Source of the DNA: Oscillospiraceae bacterium | GTDB taxonomy: Bacteria > Bacillota > Clostridia > Oscillospirales > Oscillospiraceae | DNA: 45,507 bases | NCBI GenBank assembly: GCA_022799035.1 | Contig: JAAWNQ010000016.1 | Location: 1 to 45,507, forward strand | Reading direction: 5' to 3' | Shown here: piece after piece, positions 141-43,595 of the stretch | Position numbering within the stretch: position 1 is the first letter of the stretch | Layout of the letters: every line of letters begins with the position of its first letter | Translations under genes and position numbers: made by a program | Notes under the pieces: generated by a model | Told to the model about the DNA's origin: nothing | The model's input: the letters and a program-made list of their open reading frames with translations, nothing else | Databases searched by the model: none

Positions 141-552
141 TTTTCGCCTCCGCCATGTAGTCGCACCACTTCAAAAAGGCCCGGAGAATAGGGTTTACAT
201 TTCCCTGATCCGCCCACCCCGCAAAGCCGATAAAGCCGTCAGCGTTGAAACTGATACACTCTCTCTGCACAAAATAGTGGGAATTGACATACAGGAAACA
301 CGATGTAATGGAACCATTGGGCCGCTTTTTGATGTTTATTTTCTTGCTGAGGGTCATAGTGGAAACCGAAGTCTCACAGTCCTTTGCGGACTTTTTTAAC
401 TCCTGTTGAAGAAGCATAACCAGGGGAAGAATATCGCCCTCTGTAATGTCGTCATAGGTCAGGCCCTTTTGCTTGAAGTAGTCCCGGGCTTCATCATTAG
501 TACATACTGCGGTTATATCGGTCTTTCGGATGTACGGTTTAGTCCCCATCAC
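133..552 (-). CDS. hypothetical phage-type protein, 139 aa
   Basis: I do not recognise the family. The protein is soluble, mixed alpha/beta in appearance, with no signal peptide or membrane segment. It has an N-terminal stretch with ICNDEA-like acidic residues and a C-terminal segment rich in aromatic residues (FIGFAGWADQG, FLKWCDYM). It starts with GTG at 552 or ATG at 549. The GGAGGGG at 563-569 fits the GTG better by spacing. The start overlaps the end of the MazG-like gene (TAA at 539-541), and its own stop overlaps the start of the adenine methyltransferase. It is therefore embedded in a tightly packed leftward operon. A role linked to DNA modification is possible only by position. Confidence 0.7.
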   Translation of the reverse strand: MMGTKPYIRKTDITAVCTNDEARDYFKQKGLTYDDITEGDILPLVMLLQQELKKSAKDCETSVSTMTLSKKINIKKRPNGSITSCFLYVNSHYFVQRECISFNADGFIGFAGWADQGNVNPILRAFLKWCDYMAEAKNG

Positions 553-35568: not shown

Positions 35569-36756
35569 TCAACTAATCTCCCCCGTGAGATACCTCCAGG
35601 TATACTCGGCGTGAAGGGCGGCGGCCACCGCGAGCACCCCCTCGTCCATGTCCACATAGCCGTTGTGAAGGGGATACCGGGTGTTGGGGTCGGCAGGGTT
35701 GGAGCTGCCCACATAGGCGTAGCAGCCGGGAACGGTGAGGAGGAACTCAGCAAAGTCGTCCCCCCCCAAAGAGATGGGCCGGTCGGTGACCAGAGCCTGG
35801 GAGCCGAAGAGGTCGCTGACCACCTCCCCCGCCTCCTTACAGCCCCCCTCCGGGTTCACCAGGGGGGTGGCGAAGTCCACCCACTCCACCTCCGCCGTGC
35901 CGCCGTAGAGCCGGGCGGTCTGGGCGCAGAGGGCGTCGATCCACTCCCGGGCGTTCCTCCGGGTCTCGGGGGTCATGGCCCGGACCGTCCCCTCCAGCGC
36001 CGCGTCCTCGGCCACGATGTTGTAGGCGGTGCCCGCCGTCAGCTTCCCCACCCCGATGACCAGGGGATCCACCGGGGAGGTCCGCCGGGTGACCAAAGCC
36101 TGGATCCCCACCACCATCTGGCTGGCGATATAAAGGGCGTCCACCCCCAGGTGGGGGGTGGAGACGTGGGCGGCCTTGCCCCGGACAGTGATCTTAAAAT
36201 AGTCCACGCTGGCGTTGTTGGGTCCCGCCTTGACCCCCACGGAGCCCACCGTCAGATCGGGGGCCACATGGACCCCGAACACCCGTCCGGAGCCCTCCAG
36301 CAGCCCCTCCTTCACAAACACCCGGCCCCCGTGGCCCACCTCCTCGGCGTGCTGGAAGAACAGGCGCACCTCCCCGCCGAACTCCCCCTTATGGGCGTAG
36401 AGGAGCTTGGCTCCCCCCAGCAGTCCCGCGGTGTGGCAGTCGTGGCCGCAGGCGTGCATGACCCCCGGCTCCCGGGAGCAGTAGGGCAGCGCCTGGTTCA
36501 CCTCCTGGATGGCCAAAGCGTCGGTGTCCGCCCGGAGGGTCATCACCCGGTCCCCGGGCTTCTCGCCGTGAAAGACGGCGTAGACCCCGCTGCCGTCGAT
36601 ACGCCTGTGGTCGGTGATGCCGATATCGTCCAGCTCCTTTTCGATGCGCTCCGCCGTCCAGAACTCCTTCCGGCTCACCTCGGGGTGCATGTGAAACTCC
36701 CGGCGCAGGGCCGACAGATAGGGGGCCAAGGCCTCCCCTTCCCTTCGAAAGTCCAT
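35569..36756 (-). CDS. M20-family amidohydrolase/aminoacylase, 395 aa
   Basis: It belongs to the M20D group (HipO/AmhX/N-acyl-amino-acid amidohydrolases). Metal ligands are seen in MHACGHDCHTA (about 101-111), QHAEEVGHGG and VHVAPDLTVG; the dimerisation domain (about 175-290) includes KAAHVSTPHLGVDA. The gene follows metQ on the same strand after a hairpin. It may release methionine or another amino acid from an N-acyl or peptide precursor taken up by MetNIQ. That substrate is inference from position. Confidence 0.88.
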   Translation of the reverse strand: MDFRREGEALAPYLSALRREFHMHPEVSRKEFWTAERIEKELDDIGITDHRRIDGSGVYAVFHGEKPGDRVMTLRADTDALAIQEVNQALPYCSREPGVMHACGHDCHTAGLLGGAKLLYAHKGEFGGEVRLFFQHAEEVGHGGRVFVKEGLLEGSGRVFGVHVAPDLTVGSVGVKAGPNNASVDYFKITVRGKAAHVSTPHLGVDALYIASQMVVGIQALVTRRTSPVDPLVIGVGKLTAGTAYNIVAEDAALEGTVRAMTPETRRNAREWIDALCAQTARLYGGTAEVEWVDFATPLVNPEGGCKEAGEVVSDLFGSQALVTDRPISLGGDDFAEFLLTVPGCYAYVGSSNPADPNTRYPLHNGYVDMDEGVLAVAAALHAEYTWRYLTGEIS

Positions 36757-36815: not shown

Positions 36816-37640
36816 TCAATACTCAAAGGCGGGGAGATAGGTGCCCTTAAAGATCTCCTCAATGGCTTTGGCGGTCTCGGCCGTCTGATAGGCGGCCAAA
36901 ACCTTCTGGTAGGTCTCGTTCTCCACATCGGCGGTACGGCAGGCGATGATGTTGATGTAGGGGTTATCGCTGCCCGGCTCCACCTGCTCGGTATAGATGG
37001 CGTCGGCGATGTTCAGCCCGTTGTCCACCGCGTGGGCGCCGTTGACGAAGGCGGCGGCCACCTCAGGATCGCTGATCTGGCTGGCGGTGTAGGCGGCCTC
37101 CACCTCGATAAACTCCAGATTCAGGGGATTGGCGGTGATGTCCTTCAGCTCAGGGACATAGCCGGCGGCGGGATCCACCTCGATGACCCCGGCGGACTCC
37201 AGGATCTTGAAGCAGCGGCCCTCGTTGGTGGGATCCTGGGGCACGGCGATCTTGTCCCCCTCCTTCAGCTCGTCCAGGGAGGCGATCTTGTCCGAGTAAA
37301 CGCTGAGGGGGGCGATGATGGTGTCCCCCAGCACGGTGATGTCATACCCCTGGGCGTCAATCTCGTTGTTGAGGTAGGCCTTGTGCTGGAAGGCGTTCAG
37401 ATCCACCTCCCCGGCGTTCAGGGCGTCGTTGGGCATGTTGTAGGCGGTGTACTCCACCATCTCGCACTTGATGTTGTCCTTGGCCAGCAACTCGTTGACG
37501 GTCTTCCACTGGTCGTTCTGGGTGCCCACAACGCCAACCTTCACGACGGTCTCCTGATCCTTCTTCCCCCCACAGGCGGTAAGCAGGCCCAGGGTCAGGA
37601 CGGCGGCAAGGGACAGGGCGATCACATTCTTCTTTTTCAT
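36816..37640 (-). CDS. metQ: methionine ABC transporter substrate-binding lipoprotein, 274 aa
   Basis: MetQ/NlpA family: a lipoprotein signal (MKKKNVIALSLAAVLTLGLLTACGG, lipobox LTAC) and the binding domain with VGVVGTQNDQWKTVNELL near the start, AFQHKAYLNNEI and VNGAHAVDNGLN. It delivers methionine to MetNI at the membrane. AGGAGGAAT is upstream. Confidence 0.95.
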   Translation of the reverse strand: MKKKNVIALSLAAVLTLGLLTACGGKKDQETVVKVGVVGTQNDQWKTVNELLAKDNIKCEMVEYTAYNMPNDALNAGEVDLNAFQHKAYLNNEIDAQGYDITVLGDTIIAPLSVYSDKIASLDELKEGDKIAVPQDPTNEGRCFKILESAGVIEVDPAAGYVPELKDITANPLNLEFIEVEAAYTASQISDPEVAAAFVNGAHAVDNGLNIADAIYTEQVEPGSDNPYINIIACRTADVENETYQKVLAAYQTAETAKAIEEIFKGTYLPAFEY

Positions 37641-37722: not shown

Positions 37723-38400
37723 TCAGTGGGTGGCCCTCTGGGCGATCCGGTTGCCTATGTACTGGATCAGGCTCACCATGACCAGGATGATGAGAATGAC
37801 CACATAGGCCACGTCCATCTGGTTCCGCATACCGTAGGAGATGGCGAAGTTGCCCAGACCCCCGGCCCCGATGGCTCCCGCCATGGCGGTGAAGCCGATA
37901 AGGGACACCAGGGTGATGGTGCCCCCCCGGACGATGCTGGGGACGGACTCCCGCAGGTAGACCCGCCACAGGATCTCCCAGGGGGAGCAGCCCATGGACT
38001 GGGCCGCCTCCACAAGGCCCGGGGAGACCTCCGCCAGGGCGGACTCCACCTGCCGGGCGAAGAAGGGTACCGTTCCAAACAGAAGCGGGATGATAGAGCC
38101 CTTCACCCCGGAGGCGGTCCCCACCAGCAGCCGGCTCAGGCTCAGCATGATGATGGCCAGCAGGATGAAGGGGATGGAGCGGAACAGGTCGATGACCTTC
38201 CCCACCACCAGGTAGACCACCCGGTTTTCCAGCACTCCCCCCGGCCTGGTGGCCACCACCGTCACTCCCCAGACCAGTCCCAGGAAAAAGGAGATCGGGG
38301 CGGTAAGGGCCAGCATCTCCATGGTCTCCACAAAGGCCTTCCAGAGAAGCTCCGGCTTGCTCATCACGTTGGGGATGATGACATTCAGAAGATCAGCCAC
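37723..38400 (-). CDS. metI: methionine ABC transporter permease, 225 aa
   Basis: Five membrane segments and the EAA-type loop (ALAEVSPGLVEAAQSMGCSPWEILWRVYLRESVPSIVRG) identify MetI. It overlaps metN by 8 bases, and metQ follows after an 82-base gap. Confidence 0.95.
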   Translation of the reverse strand: MADLLNVIIPNVMSKPELLWKAFVETMEMLALTAPISFFLGLVWGVTVVATRPGGVLENRVVYLVVGKVIDLFRSIPFILLAIIMLSLSRLLVGTASGVKGSIIPLLFGTVPFFARQVESALAEVSPGLVEAAQSMGCSPWEILWRVYLRESVPSIVRGGTITLVSLIGFTAMAGAIGAGGLGNFAISYGMRNQMDVAYVVILIILVMVSLIQYIGNRIAQRATH

Positions 38401-39427
38401 GCTTCAACACCTCCACCATCACGTTACATTCGCTTAAGTAGTTGACCGCCTCGGTGATCCGCTCCCCGCTGAGGATAGCCACCAAGCCCCCCAGGGGCTG
38501 GCCGTCGATGATCTCCACGTTGCCAAAGACGATGCTCACATCCACGTTGAACCGGCGGGAGACCTCGGAGATGGTGGCCTCGCTCACGTTGCTCTGTCCG
38601 TAGTTGAGCCGGGCCACGATCTCCCCGGGCTTCACCGCCACGATGGGGTCGTTTGCGGCGATGAGCTCCTCGATCTTGCCCAGGTTGGAGGTGGTGGCGA
38701 TAAAGGAGCGGGTCACCGGCTGCTGGGGGTTGGAGAACACCTCAAAGACGCTCCCCTCCTCCACCACACAGCCCTTGTCCATCACGGCCACCCGGTGGCA
38801 TATCTCCTTCACCACCGCCATCTCGTGGGTAATGACCACCACGGTGATCCCCGTCTTCCGGTTGATGTCCCGGATAAGCCGGAGGATGGACTGGGTGGTC
38901 TGGGGGTCCAGGGCGGAGGTGGCCTCGTCACAGAGGAGCACCTTGGGGTCGCTGGCCAGGGCCCTTGCGATGGCCACCCGCTGCTTCTGCCCGCCTGATA
39001 GCTGGGAGGGATAGGCCTCCGCCTTGTCGGGCAGACCCACCAGCTCCAAAAGCTCCAAGACCTTTCTTCGGGTCTCCTCTCTGGAGAGCCCGGACCCCTT
39101 CAGGGGGAAGGCCACATTCTGCTCTACGGTGCGGGAGGGCATCAGGTTGAAAAGCTGGAAGATCATGCTGATCTTTTTCCGGGCCTGACGCAGCTCCCGC
39201 TCGGGCATTCGCGTCAGCTCCTGTCCATCCACCGTCACCGTCCCGGCGGTGGGCCTCTCCAGCAGGTTGATACACCGGACCAGGGTGGACTTGCCCGCCC
39301 CGGAGTAGCCGATGATACCGAAGATCTCCCCGGGGGCGATATGTAAGGTCACGTCCCGGACGGCGTGGACCCCGTTGGTCTCATTGCCGAAGGTCTTGCT
39401 GATATGCTCCAGCTTGATCACGTTCAT
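38393..39427 (-). CDS. metN: methionine ABC transporter ATPase, 344 aa
   Basis: Walker A GYSGAGKSTLVRC (about 38-50), signature LSGGQKQRVAIARAL, Walker B VLLCDEATSALDP, and a C-terminal NIL (C2) domain (about 265-340) that binds methionine and causes trans-inhibition of uptake. This domain is the mark of MetN. It is the first gene after the leader peptide and attenuator, 42 bases downstream of the attenuator U-tract. Confidence 0.96.
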   Translation of the reverse strand: MNVIKLEHISKTFGNETNGVHAVRDVTLHIAPGEIFGIIGYSGAGKSTLVRCINLLERPTAGTVTVDGQELTRMPERELRQARKKISMIFQLFNLMPSRTVEQNVAFPLKGSGLSREETRRKVLELLELVGLPDKAEAYPSQLSGGQKQRVAIARALASDPKVLLCDEATSALDPQTTQSILRLIRDINRKTGITVVVITHEMAVVKEICHRVAVMDKGCVVEEGSVFEVFSNPQQPVTRSFIATTSNLGKIEELIAANDPIVAVKPGEIVARLNYGQSNVSEATISEVSRRFNVDVSIVFGNVEIIDGQPLGGLVAILSGERITEAVNYLSECNVMVEVLKRG

Positions 39428-39468: not shown

Positions 39469-39503
39469 AAAAAGAATGGGAAGCGCGTGTGCGCTTCCCA
39501 TTC
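39469..39503 (-). terminator. attenuator terminator before metN
   Basis: A 13-bp perfect stem GAATGGGAAGCGC/GCGCTTCCCATTC with loop ACAC is followed by UUUUU (39473-39469). It lies between the Met-rich leader ORF and metN, with no other gene between. Its 5' arm is complementary to codons 22-28 of the leader ORF (see 39532-39627). Confidence 0.92.
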
Positions 39504-39531
39504 CTTTGAAACCAGCCAAGGCTGTGATTTC

Positions 39532-39627
39532 TCAGAATCCTTCATGGGCAGGCGCGCACGAAATCGTGGGCATCGGCATCATAGCCATGTCCATACCCCG
39601 CATCATCATACCATAACCGTGTGTCAT
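39532..39627 (-). CDS. methionine-rich leader peptide, 31 aa
   Basis: ATG at 39627 follows AAGGAGG (39644-39638, ten-base spacing), and TGA is at 39534-39532. The peptide MTHGYGMMMRGMDMAM...P has nine Met in 31 residues, eight of them among residues 7-19. After the Met run, codons 23-27 contain GTGCGC and CCCAT (39559-39554 and 39548-39544). These can pair with GCGCAC (39494-39489) and ATGGG (39501-39497) of the terminator 5' arm. A ribosome stalled at Met codons would leave that antiterminator free; a ribosome reaching the stop would cover it and let the terminator form. A third hairpin (39508-39531) lies in between. It should act as the methionine sensor for metNIQ. Confidence 0.85.
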   Translation of the reverse strand: MTHGYGMMMRGMDMAMMPMPTISCAPAHEGF

Positions 39628-39662
39628 AGTCGGCGCGCCTCCTTCCAAGGTGATTTTTTGTT

Positions 39663-39691
39663 ATCTTACCATTTCGTTCCCAGGCTGTCAA
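39663..39691 (-). promoter_or_regulatory. promoter of the metNIQ leader
   Basis: Reading leftward, TTGACA (39691-39686), 17 bases, TAAGAT (39668-39663). The transcript would start near 39656 and have a 230-base leader before metN. Confidence 0.88.
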
Positions 39692-39721: not shown

Positions 39722-41158
39722 TCACTCCAAGGGCATGATCCCCAGGGCCTTGTTCATCTCCTCCGGATCCATCAGGTCAATGACCGTCGCCTCGGCGGGG
39801 GGCTCGGTGGCGGGGGCGGTCTTACCCTGGGTGTAGCCGCCCTCCATGGTCATCTCTACGGTCATAAGGCCAGCCATGTCCATGTGCATTTCAGCGGTCA
39901 TCTGATCCTTGTCGTCCACTCCCACCGTCATGTCCATGGATACGGTCACGCCCTCCTCCTCGGCAGCCATGGCCACGCTCATCACATAACCTGTGACGGC
40001 CTCCTCCTTCATCTCCATCACAAAGACCAGAGTGACCACAGCGTTGCCCTGCTCAAAGTCGATGACGGCGGTATACTGGTCACCCTCCTTCACAAAGCCC
40101 TCGTCGGACAGGGCCGTCACCACCCCCTCCACGGCGGTCTTCATGGTGTCATAGGCGGCGGTGGAGTCGGTCAGCTCCAGGGAGGAGAGGGCCTGCTTCA
40201 CCAAAAGGGTGTAGTCCAGGTTTTGGGAGGCCGAAAGTAGCTCCGTCCACTCCACGCCGGACTGGGCCAGAAGGGCGGCCATGTCCATTTTATACCAGGC
40301 GGCGCTGTCCATGCCGGCGGCAGCCAAAATCTCGCCCCCCATGTTCATGTAGAGAGTCCCCAGGCCCATATCGCCCCGCAGGGAAATATCCATCCCCTCC
40401 TCCCTAAGGGAGTCCAGCATAGCCTGATCCTCGGGGGAAAGCTGGGCCTCCTCCCCGGCCAGCAGGGCCGCGGACTGGATGAACTGGGTCATATCCATCT
40501 TCATGTTCATGTCCATGCTCATCTTCGTACTGTCGGCCACCGTGCCCTTCACAGCGCCGTTCATGGTCATGGGCATTCCAAGTATGGTCATATTGGCGTC
40601 AAAACCCGCCTCCATATCCCAGATGCCCTCGTTGTACTTTTTACTGTACTCCATCAGCCTCTCCAGATAGGTGAAGCCCTTTCCCTCCAGGGCCTTTTCC
40701 ACCACCATGTCGGTATCCACGATAACGGCGGTGGCGGTCTGCTGATCCCAGCCCACAGCGCAACCGAAGGCCTGGGCGGCAAAGCGGACGGGGACGTAGG
40801 TCCGCCAGGTGGTGTTATCCACATAGGGGGCCACGTCCATGGTGATGGGGGTAGTCTTGCCCCCCTCGGTGAGGGTGGCGGCGGTCTCGTTCAGGGTCAT
40901 GGTCAGGGTCCTGCCGTCCCGGGTGGCGGTGATCACGCTGCCCTCGCTCTTCACCTCCGCCCCCATGGCCTCGAAAACAGCCCGGAAGGGCAGGAAGGTG
41001 CGCTGATCCCTCACCTGGGGCACGGCGTCGGTAAAGACCAGGTTCTGGCCGTCCAGCTGGACGGCGATCCCATTCTCCTCCGCGGCCAGGGCGGCGCCGC
41101 AGCCCACCAGGGCGACGGTAAGACCCAAAGCTGTAAACCAGCGAGTCCATTTTTTCAT
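39722..41158 (-). CDS. secreted Met-rich protein with copper-amine-oxidase-N-like stalk, 478 aa
   Basis: An N-terminal signal (MKKWTRWFTALGLTVALVGCGAALA) contains LVGC, a possible lipobox, so it is a lipoprotein or a processed secreted protein. Residues about 30-140 are two copies of the stalk-like module (DAVPQVRDQRTFLPFRAVFEAMG and NTTWRTYVPVRFAAQAFG). The rest (about 150-478) is a DUF6612/LolA-like sheet with very many Met residues: about 42 in 478 (9%), in clusters such as MSMDMNMKMDM and EMHMDMAG. A role as metal-binding or sacrificial methionine store is speculation. It lies directly upstream of the met leader and may read into it. AAGGAGG lies upstream of the start. Confidence 0.75.
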   Translation of the reverse strand: MKKWTRWFTALGLTVALVGCGAALAAEENGIAVQLDGQNLVFTDAVPQVRDQRTFLPFRAVFEAMGAEVKSEGSVITATRDGRTLTMTLNETAATLTEGGKTTPITMDVAPYVDNTTWRTYVPVRFAAQAFGCAVGWDQQTATAVIVDTDMVVEKALEGKGFTYLERLMEYSKKYNEGIWDMEAGFDANMTILGMPMTMNGAVKGTVADSTKMSMDMNMKMDMTQFIQSAALLAGEEAQLSPEDQAMLDSLREEGMDISLRGDMGLGTLYMNMGGEILAAAGMDSAAWYKMDMAALLAQSGVEWTELLSASQNLDYTLLVKQALSSLELTDSTAAYDTMKTAVEGVVTALSDEGFVKEGDQYTAVIDFEQGNAVVTLVFVMEMKEEAVTGYVMSVAMAAEEEGVTVSMDMTVGVDDKDQMTAEMHMDMAGLMTVEMTMEGGYTQGKTAPATEPPAEATVIDLMDPEEMNKALGIMPLE

Positions 41159-41351: not shown

Positions 41352-41401
41352 GGTAAAAATTGATTTCCCGCCGGCCCCTTAGGTCAGAAAGGATGGTCCC
41401 C

Positions 41402-42226
41402 ATGAATGCTCCCTTCTCCCACTATCAGGAGAGCGCCGACTATATCTCCTCCCGGCTGGGGGGCTTTCTCCCCCGGGTGGCCATGGTGCTGGGCTCCGGC
41501 CTGGGCTTCCTGGGCGACCTGGTGGAGGATCCCATCGTCATCCCTTTTGGAAACATCCCCCATTTTAAGGTCTCCACCGCTCCCGGCCACGCCGGGCGGC
41601 TGGTCTGCGGGCTTCTGGGGGGACAGCCGGTGGCCGTCATGCAGGGCCGGATCCACCACTATGAGGGCTACTCCCTCCAGGAGGTCTCCTACGCCGTCCG
41701 CGTCCTGAAGCTGGTGGGCTGCAGCCGGCTGATCCTCACCAACGCCGCCGGCTGTATCAACAGGGACTGGAGCGCCGGGGAGATCATGCTCATCACCGAC
41801 CACATCAAATTCTTCCTGGATTCCCCCCTCCGGGGGGAGAACCTGCCCCAGTTCGGCACCCGGTTCCCCGATATGACCCGGGTCTATACCCCCGCCCTCC
41901 AAAGGGTCGCCCGCGAGAGCGCCCAGGAGCTGGGACTGCCTCTGCGCCAAGGGGTCTACTGCTACTTCCCCGGCCCCCAGTTCGAGACCCCCGCCGAGAT
42001 CCGGGCCGCCCGGGCCCTGGGGGCCGACGCCGCCGGCATGTCCACCGTCCCAGAGGCCATCACCGCCGCCCACGCCGGCATGGAGACCCTGGGTCTCACC
42101 CTTCTGAGCAACATGGCGGCGGGGATCCTGGATCAGCCCCTCTCCGGGGAGGAGGTCAACGCCACGGCGGAAAAAAGCCGGGAAACCTTTTCTCAGCTCC
42201 TTTTAAGGTGCCTGGAAAAAATGTAG
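41402..42226 (+). CDS. punA: purine nucleoside phosphorylase, 274 aa
   Basis: PNP family with VLGSGLGFLGDLV (phosphate loop, about 27-39), the GQPVAVMQGRIHHYEGYS stretch (about 64-85), LTNAAGCIN and GADAAGMSTVPEAITAAHAGM (about 200-220), the signature of PNP/MTA phosphorylases. It splits inosine or guanosine to base and ribose-1-phosphate. Trimeric PNPs and MTA phosphorylases are close relatives, but Glu/Asn-type base contacts (the PxFETPAEIRA and NAAG motifs) point to PNP. The start at 41402 has AAAGG nine bases upstream; an earlier ATG overlaps that site. It may act in one route with the next gene. Confidence 0.92.
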   Translation: MNAPFSHYQESADYISSRLGGFLPRVAMVLGSGLGFLGDLVEDPIVIPFGNIPHFKVSTAPGHAGRLVCGLLGGQPVAVMQGRIHHYEGYSLQEVSYAVRVLKLVGCSRLILTNAAGCINRDWSAGEIMLITDHIKFFLDSPLRGENLPQFGTRFPDMTRVYTPALQRVARESAQELGLPLRQGVYCYFPGPQFETPAEIRAARALGADAAGMSTVPEAITAAHAGMETLGLTLLSNMAAGILDQPLSGEEVNATAEKSRETFSQLLLRCLEKM

Positions 42227-42242
42227 CCATTTTGTCATTTTT

Positions 42243-42258
42243 GTTACCGGTTTGTAAC
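42243..42258. promoter_or_regulatory. inverted repeat GTTAC-N6-GTAAC upstream of mtaD-like gene
   Basis: GTTAC-CGGTTT-GTAAC is a perfect inverted repeat in the 70-base gap before the deaminase gene. TTGTAACCATCTTTT at 42252-42266 matches 14 of 15 bases of 12283-12297 near the ECF sigma gene. Confidence 0.35.
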
Positions 42259-42296
42259 CATCTTTTCTCCCATTTCTTTATCAAAAAGGAGCTTTC

Positions 42297-43595
42297 ATGA
42301 ACACTCTTTTTCAGAACGTCACCGCCGTCCTTATGGACCCGGCCCACACCGTGCTTGAAAACGCCTTTGTGGCGGTGGAGGGCGGTAGGATCGCCTCGGC
42401 GGGCGCCCAGAGGCCGGAGGGGAGCTTTGACCGGGTCATTGACGGGCGGGGCGGTATCCTCATGCCGGGGCTGGTGAACTGCCACGCCCACACCGCCATG
42501 ACCCCCATGCGGGGCTACGGGGACGGCCATGACCTTCAAACCTGGCTCCACGACTACGTCTTTCCCGTGGAGGGCCGGTGGGACGACCGGGCCATCCGGG
42601 CCGCCGCGGACCTGGGGCTGATGGAGATGATCGCCTCAGGCACCACCTGCATCGCCGATATGTATATGCGCATGGAGGTGATGGGGCAGGCGGTGGCCGA
42701 CGCGGGGATCTCCGCCAACCTCTGCAACGGGGCCATCTTCTTTGGGGAGGCCTTCTCCCCCACCGGGTGCGGGGACTGCCGAAAGCAGGAGGATCTGTTC
42801 TCCGCCTGGCACGGCTATGACGGCGGGCGCATTTTGATGGACGCCGCCCTTCACGCCGAATACACCTCCCCCCCCGAGCTGTGGGAGTGGATCGCCGATT
42901 TTGCCAAAGGCCGCGGGGTGGGGATGCACGTCCACATCTCCGAGACCCAAAAGGAGCACCAGGAGTGCAAGGCCCGCCGGGGCAAGACCCCCATCCAGGC
43001 CCTGGCGGAGCGGGGGGTCTTTGACGTGCGGGCTATCGCCGCCCACTGCGTTTTCACAGAGCCTGAGGACTGGGCCATCATGGCTCAAAAGGGGATCACC
43101 GCCGTCCACAACCCCTGCTCCAACCTGAAGCTGGGCTCCGGGGTGGCCCCTATTCCCGGCCTTCTGAAGGCGGGGGTCAACGTGGCCCTGGGCACCGACG
43201 GGGTATCCTCCAACAATGACACGGATATGTTTGAGGAGATGAAGCTGGCCGCCATCCTCCAGAACGGCGTGCTGCAGGACCCCCTGGCCCTCACGGCCTG
43301 GGACGCGCTGGAGATGGCTACCGTCAACGGGGCCAGGGCCCTGGGCCGGGAGGCGGGGGCCATTGCGCCGGGACTGTGGGCCGACCTCATTGTTCTGGAT
43401 GCCGACTCCCCCAACCTGATCCCCTGTCACGACGCGGCCAATAACATTGTCTATGCCGCCCACGGCTCCAATGTAAAGCTGAATATGTGCCGGGGGAAGG
43501 TCATATATGAAAACGGGGAGTTCCTGACCATCGACAGGGAGAAAACCCTGGCGGAGGTGCGGCAGTACGCCATTCCCCTGCTGTTTGGGAAATAA
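42297..43595 (+). CDS. MtaD-family deaminase (MTA/SAH or related purine deaminase), 432 aa
   Basis: Amidohydrolase superfamily: the metal site HAHTAMTPMRGYGDG (about 61-75), then HVHISETQ, AHCVF and GTDGVSSNNDTDM (about 303-315). The GTDGxxSNNxxDM form is typical of MtaD/TrzN/AtzA-like deaminases; in Clostridia these mostly convert 5'-methylthioadenosine, S-adenosylhomocysteine or adenosine to the inosine form. PNP upstream would then release hypoxanthine. Together with metNIQ this suggests recycling around methionine and AdoMet. Substrate identity is not proven. AAAGGAG lies upstream. Confidence 0.85.
   Translation: MNTLFQNVTAVLMDPAHTVLENAFVAVEGGRIASAGAQRPEGSFDRVIDGRGGILMPGLVNCHAHTAMTPMRGYGDGHDLQTWLHDYVFPVEGRWDDRAIRAAADLGLMEMIASGTTCIADMYMRMEVMGQAVADAGISANLCNGAIFFGEAFSPTGCGDCRKQEDLFSAWHGYDGGRILMDAALHAEYTSPPELWEWIADFAKGRGVGMHVHISETQKEHQECKARRGKTPIQALAERGVFDVRAIAAHCVFTEPEDWAIMAQKGITAVHNPCSNLKLGSGVAPIPGLLKAGVNVALGTDGVSSNNDTDMFEEMKLAAILQNGVLQDPLALTAWDALEMATVNGARALGREAGAIAPGLWADLIVLDADSPNLIPCHDAANNIVYAAHGSNVKLNMCRGKVIYENGEFLTIDREKTLAEVRQYAIPLLFGK

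Follow-up and report, generated by a model that had tools for sequence, protein, structure and literature searches.

A predicted methionine-responsive leader-peptide attenuator upstream of metNIQ in Oscillospiraceae

Background

Leader-peptide attenuation is well known for amino acids other than methionine, the classic cases being the trp, his, leu, thr and phe operons, and has hardly been described for methionine itself. Accounts of methionine regulation in Firmicutes usually centre on SAM riboswitches, methionine T-boxes and repressors. In relatives of the same class but outside the order studied here, metN can be preceded by SAM-I (S-box) riboswitches, which sense SAM and contain no ORF.

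The closest prior claim that we found concerns Streptomyces lividans TK24, for which a methionine leader peptide, metL, has been proposed upstream of metNIQ (PMC8079986). According to that report, metL has three Met, including the start, in 29 residues, along with many Thr and a leaderless start, and its authors report that a typical Rho-independent terminator is missing (PMC8079986). Compared with metL, the leader described here has eight Met in 13 codons, a Shine-Dalgarno (SD) sequence, a terminator, potential competing pairings and a wide recurrence; no sequence resemblance between the two was seen by eye. Two further systems are comparable. Histidine leader peptides of hisS and hisZ replace T-boxes in Firmicutes (PMC2965389); unlike the present leader, they sense histidine and control aminoacyl-tRNA synthetase genes. 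The attenuator uORFC-8-2, with cysteine codons before cysS in Rhodobacterales, resembles ours in combining sulfur amino-acid codons in an upstream ORF with an intrinsic terminator stem, but it contains Cys only, belongs to alpha-proteobacteria and precedes a synthetase gene (PMC8632094).

Methionine T-box riboswitches precede Staphylococcus aureus metICFE (PMC3771891) and a methionine transporter of Lactococcus lactis (PMC7058034); that of metICFE senses uncharged tRNA, brings about premature termination with methionine present and prefers the initiator tRNA (PMC3771891). They are similar to the leader described here as RNA leaders controlling methionine genes, whereas T-box RNA binds tRNA directly and without a leader ORF, and the internal AUG codons of our leader call for the elongator tRNA. 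A survey of Actinobacteria did not find conserved RNA structure at methionine operons (PMC1262725). In searches of open-licence full texts, we found no methionine leader-peptide claim at metNIQ beyond S. lividans metL. The mechanism proposed below is already known; methionine, as far as we could find, is new for such an attenuator in this phylum.

Anatomy of the metNIQ leader

The DNA analysed here, referred to as the window, is a 45,507-nt stretch of an Oscillospiraceae genome (contig JAAWNQ010000016.1). Its minus strand, between 39691 and 39469, contains a promoter, an SD-led ORF of 31 codons and a strong intrinsic terminator, with metNIQ about 40 nt downstream (Table 1). The peptide reads MTHGYGMMMRGMDMAMMPMPTISCAPAHEGF and has eight Met within codons 7-19. 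These features had been outlined in a first-pass annotation of the DNA, and the near-consensus promoter (TTGACA, 17 nt, TAAGAT) and the leader ORF with its ribosome binding site and eight Met were found as described there, the consensus scan adding a TG that precedes the -10 element. The annotation had also recognized a 13-bp terminator followed by five U residues; terminator and U tract are present, but the stem has 14-17 bp, with a dG of about -25 to -28 kcal/mol. The annotation had seen neither a SAM nor a T-box motif, and an Rfam scan of the whole window agreed, with zero families at the gathering score and neither a T-box (RF00230) nor a SAM riboswitch; a known RNA family is ruled out as the identity of the leader by this lack of an Rfam match in the window.

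Table 1. Coordinates of the leader and of the downstream genes in the window
Feature	Position	Strand	Description
Leader-transcript promoter	39663..39691	-	TTGACA 39691-39686, 17-nt spacer, TAAGAT 39668-39663; consensus scan
SD of the leader ORF	39638..39644	-	AAGGAGG; sequence
Segment 1, GGAGGCGCGCC	39632..39642	-	Partner of segment 2; the pairing would mask the leader SD; duplex and fold
Leader ORF	39532..39627	-	31 codons plus stop; ATG at 39627, stop ends at 39532
Predicted regulatory Met codons 7-19, MMMRGMDMAMMPM	39571..39609	-	Sequence; Met positions invariant in 14 aligned genus peptides
Segment 2, GTGCGCGCCTGCCCAT	39544..39559	-	Partner is segment 1 or the terminator 5' arm (via GTGCGC and CCCAT)
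Intrinsic terminator hairpin	39470..39507	-	Segment 3 (5' arm) 39507-39491, loop ACAC, segment 4 39486-39470
U5 tract of the terminator	39469..39473	-	Overlaps the longest stem at its 3' end
metN, methionine ABC transporter ATPase with NIL domain	38393..39427	-	TIGR02314, 1e-120 (below curated cut-off); Pfam NIL, 6.7e-18 (above cut-off)
metI, permease	37723..38400	-	NF008049, 1.2e-51 (below curated cut-off); Pfam BPD_transp_1 above cut-off
metQ, NlpA/MetQ substrate-binding lipoprotein	36816..37640	-	PF03180, 2.1e-70
M20-family amidohydrolase	35569..36756	-	TIGR01891, 7.8e-96

Segment 2, at the end of the ORF and just past the Met run, has two potential partners. The 2:3 pairing, which would form the antiterminator, joins GTGCGC (39559-39554) to GCGCAC (39494-39489) and CCCAT (39548-39544) to ATGGG (39501-39497). 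The 1:2 pairing, absent from the first-pass description, joins the SD region (39642-39632, GGAGGCGCGCC) to 39557-39550 (GCGCGCCT) and is the stronger of the two: its duplex reaches -27.0 kcal/mol, and none of 300 shuffles was as good. Folding of the leader as a whole gives z = -6.05, a stability matched by none of 200 shuffles. The second pairing noticed earlier, between the terminator arm and the ORF end, does exist, but the bare 2:3 duplex is not beyond chance in this sequence (p = 0.21); when the footprint of a ribosome on a Met codon was masked, a fraction of 0.03 of 60 shuffles performed equally well.

The locus has the parts of a leader attenuator, that is, a promoter and an SD-led ORF with a codon run, an intrinsic terminator, a codon that matches the operon function, and a 1:2 pairing. 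As in the classic attenuators, a promoter, a short ORF with a run of cognate codons, a 1:2 pairing, a possible competing 2:3 pairing and an intrinsic terminator stand before the cognate operon. It differs from them in that the cognate residue is methionine, which also initiates translation (and is often accompanied by Cys outside the genus), and in that the operon serves uptake and lies in Oscillospiraceae and relatives, Firmicutes in which T-boxes are usual.

Conservation within the genus

In a DNA search, all 16 genomes of the genus, the window's genome included, proved to contain the leader, and each of the 16 has the Met-run ORF, TTGACA 5' of it and GAGG ahead of its ATG. metN lies 3' of the leader in 15 genomes, the contig of the sixteenth (L004) ending first, and both the terminator and metN were kept in all 15 genomes whose contig reaches that far; the distance from the leader ATG to metN, with the first in-frame start taken, is 133-221 nt in the 15. 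Alignment of 14 of the 15 distinct peptides (that of L009 was left out) revealed invariant Met at positions 7, 8, 9, 12, 14, 16, 17 and 19. D13, A15 and P20 are also invariant and P18 is nearly so, and this conservation exceeds what the counting of Met needs. The C-terminus varies in sequence and length. Although its residues differ, both segment 2 (GCGCGCCTCC or close to it) and the terminator arm (GGGAAGCGCG or a close variant) persist, altered in some of the rows. The first-pass annotation had expected Met codons, terminator and antiterminator to be conserved while the other leader residues drift. The Met codons and the terminator behave in this way; drift is seen mainly at the C-terminus and between genera, but several non-Met residues of codons 1-21 are conserved within the genus.

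The wording of this leader appears confined to one genus, because the exact Met-run DNA motif matched 15 contigs, taken as the genus relatives, in a collection with one genome per species (which may not hold the window's own genome). A peptide-profile search of 400 family genomes gave strong matches in genus genomes alone, the best match elsewhere (1.9e-4) lying inside an 889-aa frame. A search of genome contigs for related loci confirmed the leader in none of 39 stretches, and distant BLAST found no plasmid relatives.

Met-rich leaders in other genera and families

A search for MetN in 200 family genomes gave 90 places in other genera; the upstream DNA was read for 66 of these (24 were not read), and 65 regions entered the Met-run test (L122, with 98 nt, was left out). 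An SD-led short ORF with at least five Met in 14 codons was found within 400 nt in 14 of the 65 regions, as compared with none in 1300 dinucleotide shuffles of these regions and none in the 65 antisense strands; examples are MKKNCFMMMAMMMYMPGCMCMSRRAQKYDSSCVRFQ (L107) and MQKRFGGMMMDMMRMCSMCMMLCAQKRCLPRPISV (L156). Three looser leaders (L095, L097 and L098) raise the count at metN to 17, and five further operons, which by eye begin with metQ, have an SD-led short ORF with at least four Met in 14 codons ahead of metQ, 1.1-1.5 kb upstream, so that 22 of the 66 loci have Met-rich leaders at metN or metQ. Neither leader nor T-box was found in 29 of the 66, many of which were read for 900 nt only and one for 98 nt.

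Of 58 MetN places in other families of the order, 39, hand-chosen for spread over genera, were read (leaving 19); 15 of the 39 have an ORF with at least four Met in 14 codons within 1400 nt (that of L200 being weak), and seven reach five Met within 400 nt, where shuffles predict 0.0. Beyond the order, the class gave 87 MetN places, of which 29 were read (58 were not), two of them with under 400 nt, and one weak candidate, L201, was seen; the upstream stretches of class loci include 142 nt (L212), 1093 nt (L221), 349 nt (L227) and 1453 nt (L211).

The 33 leaders from outside the genus are 22-43 aa long, and Met and Cys make up 21.8% and 9.0%, respectively, of their 1093 residues. Met and Cys codons are mixed in many of them (L107, L113, L125, L145, L156 and others), and the composition suggests that such leaders may sense both sulfur amino acids jointly. 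Runs of other residues were also found in the short ORFs of the 65 family regions: Arg runs in 15 (4.75 expected) and Thr runs in five (0.15 expected), as compared with an expectation of 0.0 for Met; some of these Arg- and Thr-run ORFs look, by eye, like out-of-frame readings of metQ. Because Arg and Thr runs are over-represented too, a single-residue run alone is not proof of a leader.

Terminators and competing pairings

Forty-eight leaders (15 from the genus and 33 others) were used for the terminator and pairing tests; L200 and L201 (weak), L095, L097, L098 and L004 (contig end) were left out of the terminator, duplex and folding tests. A hairpin of -10 kcal/mol or better with a T tract lies at most 130 nt past the leader stop in 47 of the 48, as compared with 36 of 240 shuffles, and hairpins of -20 kcal/mol or better were found in 27 of the 48 and in none of the 240 shuffles. 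The one miss, L130, has a strong hairpin by eye and was omitted from the ribosome-masked folding. Differently worded Met-rich leaders, together with terminators, recur at the same gene in many genera and several families, in agreement with the attenuator reading.

The 1:2 duplex reached p < 0.05 in 10 of the 15 genus leaders, whose rows are related and not independent, and in nine of the 33 others. The corresponding numbers for the 2:3 duplex were one of 15 and four of 33, one of the four (L130) being an artefact of the misplaced terminator. When a ribosome was masked onto the Met codons, the terminator 5' arm was paired upstream more than with the ribosome at the stop in 45 of 47 leaders, and more than without a ribosome in 43 of 47. 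Mean upstream pairing of the arm was 0.80 in the genus and 0.75 in the others with the ribosome on the Met codons, 0.46 and 0.28 with it at the stop, and 0.50 and 0.49 with no ribosome. The contrast between stop and Met codons follows in part from the set-up, since a ribosome at the stop leaves less RNA free; this does not apply to the contrast with shuffles, in which 24 of the 47 leaders fell in the top 10%. In short, the 1:2 pairing that would hide the SD is strong in the genus, and the 2:3 antiterminator is plausible, though supported only when the whole leader set is taken together and weakly in any single sequence.

Exchange with T-boxes and SAM-I riboswitches

A motif search recognized a T-box with an ATG specifier at the same gene in 15 of the 66 family loci, none of which also has a leader. 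Seven of these T-boxes reach the Rfam gathering score upstream of metN, and the alignments of eight T-boxes have AUG at the specifier place. The T-box motif was also found in eight of the 39 loci from other families of the order (one at the gathering score). Among 20 class loci scanned outside the order, SAM-I lies upstream of metN in six and a T-box in two. The Rfam scan did not include the non-window genus loci, L115-L120, L168, L208, L211, L212, L217, L220, L221, L226, L227, and L230 onward.

On a quick maximum-likelihood tree of 63 MetN (40 with leaders and 23 with motif-called T-boxes; L200 and the loci with neither device were left out), at least seven changes between T-box and leader are needed, 18 of the 60 inner branches being weakly supported. 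Both devices can occur in the same genome: in G187, a T-box precedes one metN copy (L099) and a leader precedes another (L145), and G512 has a T-box copy (L183, by motif only) and a leader copy (L166). In the window's genus, SAM-I exists elsewhere in 13 of the 16 genomes, before metK (named by eye) in three of four loci inspected, the contig of the fourth ending, and T-boxes exist elsewhere in all 16. A Met-specifier T-box pattern with a gap of 90-120 matched none of the 16 genomes; a similar setting (85-115) recovered 11 of 15 controls. In one locus, L112, a T-box with AUG at the specifier place (268-522, minus strand) lies not upstream of metN but about 1 kb downstream.

Two other explanations were considered. 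The Met-rich ORF might encode a working small peptide, either a Met/His/Cys binder of copper or another metal or a nascent-peptide metal sensor, with a terminator that is incidental or metal-controlled; the genus peptide is indeed conserved beyond Met in codons 1-21, the richness in Met and Cys of the leaders elsewhere would suit Cu(I), and the upstream neighbour (39725-41158) is itself Met-rich. However, relatives bear Met-specifier T-boxes and SAM-I riboswitches at the same gene, the genes downstream are methionine genes, the C-terminal residues vary while segment 2 persists, and across genera, by eye, little is kept except the Met/Cys richness, at lengths of 22-43 aa. We regard a working peptide as very improbable. 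A new riboswitch for methionine or SAM, that is, a structured RNA that is AUG-rich by chance, would account for the very stable fold of the leader (z = -6.05) and seems slightly less probable still. The Met codons share a single frame that follows an SD, which was a condition of the search, yet shuffles give no such ORF at five or more Met; within the genus this frame persists although the surrounding DNA changes; no structure shared across genera was seen by inspection; and the window has no Rfam match at the gathering score.

Leaders at metY and metG

A loose Met-leader DNA pattern gave matches that, among those listed, were mostly coding. Fifteen with a Met run behind an SD were picked by eye, as a non-random sample, of which seven were Met leaders (L300, L301, L302, L304, L305, L307 and L308) and eight were not. 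Among the matches listed, MKNALYMCMMMRRTALNRM (L300) and MARTMMMEMMAMHMCSMCLSCRAHRRVQSSR (L301) precede O-acetylhomoserine sulfhydrylase (metY), and MGCSCYMCMMMLRTALSHL (L304) precedes methionyl-tRNA synthetase (metG), all three in genomes of one other genus of the family. The Met codon matches the function of the target both in the window (metN, metI and metQ) and in these relatives (metY and metG). In the DNA of L300 and L304, by eye, GACTGCC/GGCAGTC joins the leader end to the terminator arm and GAGGGC/GCCCTC reaches the SD region.

We rejected metG as a general target of Met leaders: of 30 metG loci surveyed, two were not located, and the 28 assessed contained one clear leader, at L315, which is the L304 site, and a weak ORF with four Met (L337), with none at the four metG loci of the window's genus. 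The leaders of L300 and L304, from two species of one genus, are alike (YMCMMM.RTAL) and precede different genes; judging from this likeness, the attenuator seems to have moved between metY and metG.

In the least probable alternative, the hairpin serves chiefly as the 3' terminator of the preceding gene (39722-41158) and the leader ORF is a chance reading of the intervening DNA. The position of that gene on the same strand would allow this, but it is opposed by the near-consensus promoter in between, with its TTGACA in 16 of 16 genus genomes, and by the recurrence of leader-terminator pairs ahead of metN, metQ, metY and metG elsewhere.

Proposed mechanism

From the anatomy of the locus, its conservation in the genus, the recurrence of leader and terminator at the same gene and their replacement by T-boxes or SAM-I in relatives, we interpret the metNIQ leader as a methionine-responsive, ribosome-mediated transcription attenuator that senses charged elongator tRNA-Met, and assign this reading a probability of about 0.87. 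It is the interpretation that the first-pass annotation had offered, and the comparative tests support it; ribosome stalling, formation of the antiterminator in the cell and the response to methionine are the parts of the attenuator model that we infer.

RNA polymerase would start at the promoter (39691-39663), and a ribosome would enter the leader ORF. Internal AUG codons are decoded by elongator tRNA-Met. With charged elongator tRNA-Met plentiful, the ribosome should pass the eight Met codons and reach the stop, where it would cover part of segment 2 or leave it to pair again with the SD region (1:2); the terminator (3:4) would then form ahead of metN. Under a shortage of charged tRNA-Met, the ribosome would stall in codons 7-19 and leave segment 2 free to pair with the terminator 5' arm (2:3), so that transcription could continue into metNIQ. 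The signal is taken to be the charging of tRNA-Met because relatives carry Met-specifier T-boxes at the same gene, and because differently worded leaders recur in the same place, uptake is probably turned on when ribosomes are short of methionine.

Methionine starvation should also limit fMet-tRNA, and hence initiation at the leader itself, which a classic attenuator would be expected to tolerate poorly. A broader proposal, to which we give clearly less than even odds, is that these leaders form a class of attenuators of one order, reading Met or Met plus Cys, exchangeable with Met T-boxes and SAM-I, with a small regulon (metNIQ and metQ, and in one genus metY and metG) and a two-phase response. 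The latter is suggested because methionine is needed to begin every protein and because the leader SD is hidden by segment 1: at mild shortage, with elongator tRNA-Met limiting at the eight codons, the switch would be on, and it would be off at severe shortage, when too little fMet-tRNA would be left to start the leader and the 1:2 pairing and terminator would form.

If the attenuator reading is true, methionine becomes one more amino acid for which a leader attenuator is well supported in this phylum, and a ribosome-read device at methionine genes spans many members of one order, including the Oscillospiraceae, which are gut bacteria. RNA regulators would have been exchanged repeatedly at a single gene, and a ribosome-dependent sensor would serve, paradoxically, for the amino acid that also starts translation. 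The leaders would also mark genes in poorly studied gut bacteria that may respond to methionine or cysteine.

Neighbouring genes

The M20-family amidohydrolase is likely the final gene of the operon, judging by gene order and strand, and perhaps frees methionine from an acylated or peptide form imported by MetNIQ. The gene upstream of the leader (39722-41158, same strand) ends about 30 nt before the -35 element of the leader promoter; by eye its product looks secreted. It has a copper amine oxidase N-terminal domain, and its C-terminal half is strikingly rich in Met. A similar gene end was seen in several loci of the genus (L004, L005 and L009). Divergent from metNIQ, the plus strand at 41360-43595 encodes a purine nucleoside phosphorylase followed by an amidohydrolase that resembles MTA/SAH deaminases at scores below the curated cut-offs, and these genes are possible neighbours for methionine/SAM salvage. 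A gene for the bacterial large SRP RNA was recognized near metN in two genomes of one genus (L162:703-969 and L165:716-981).
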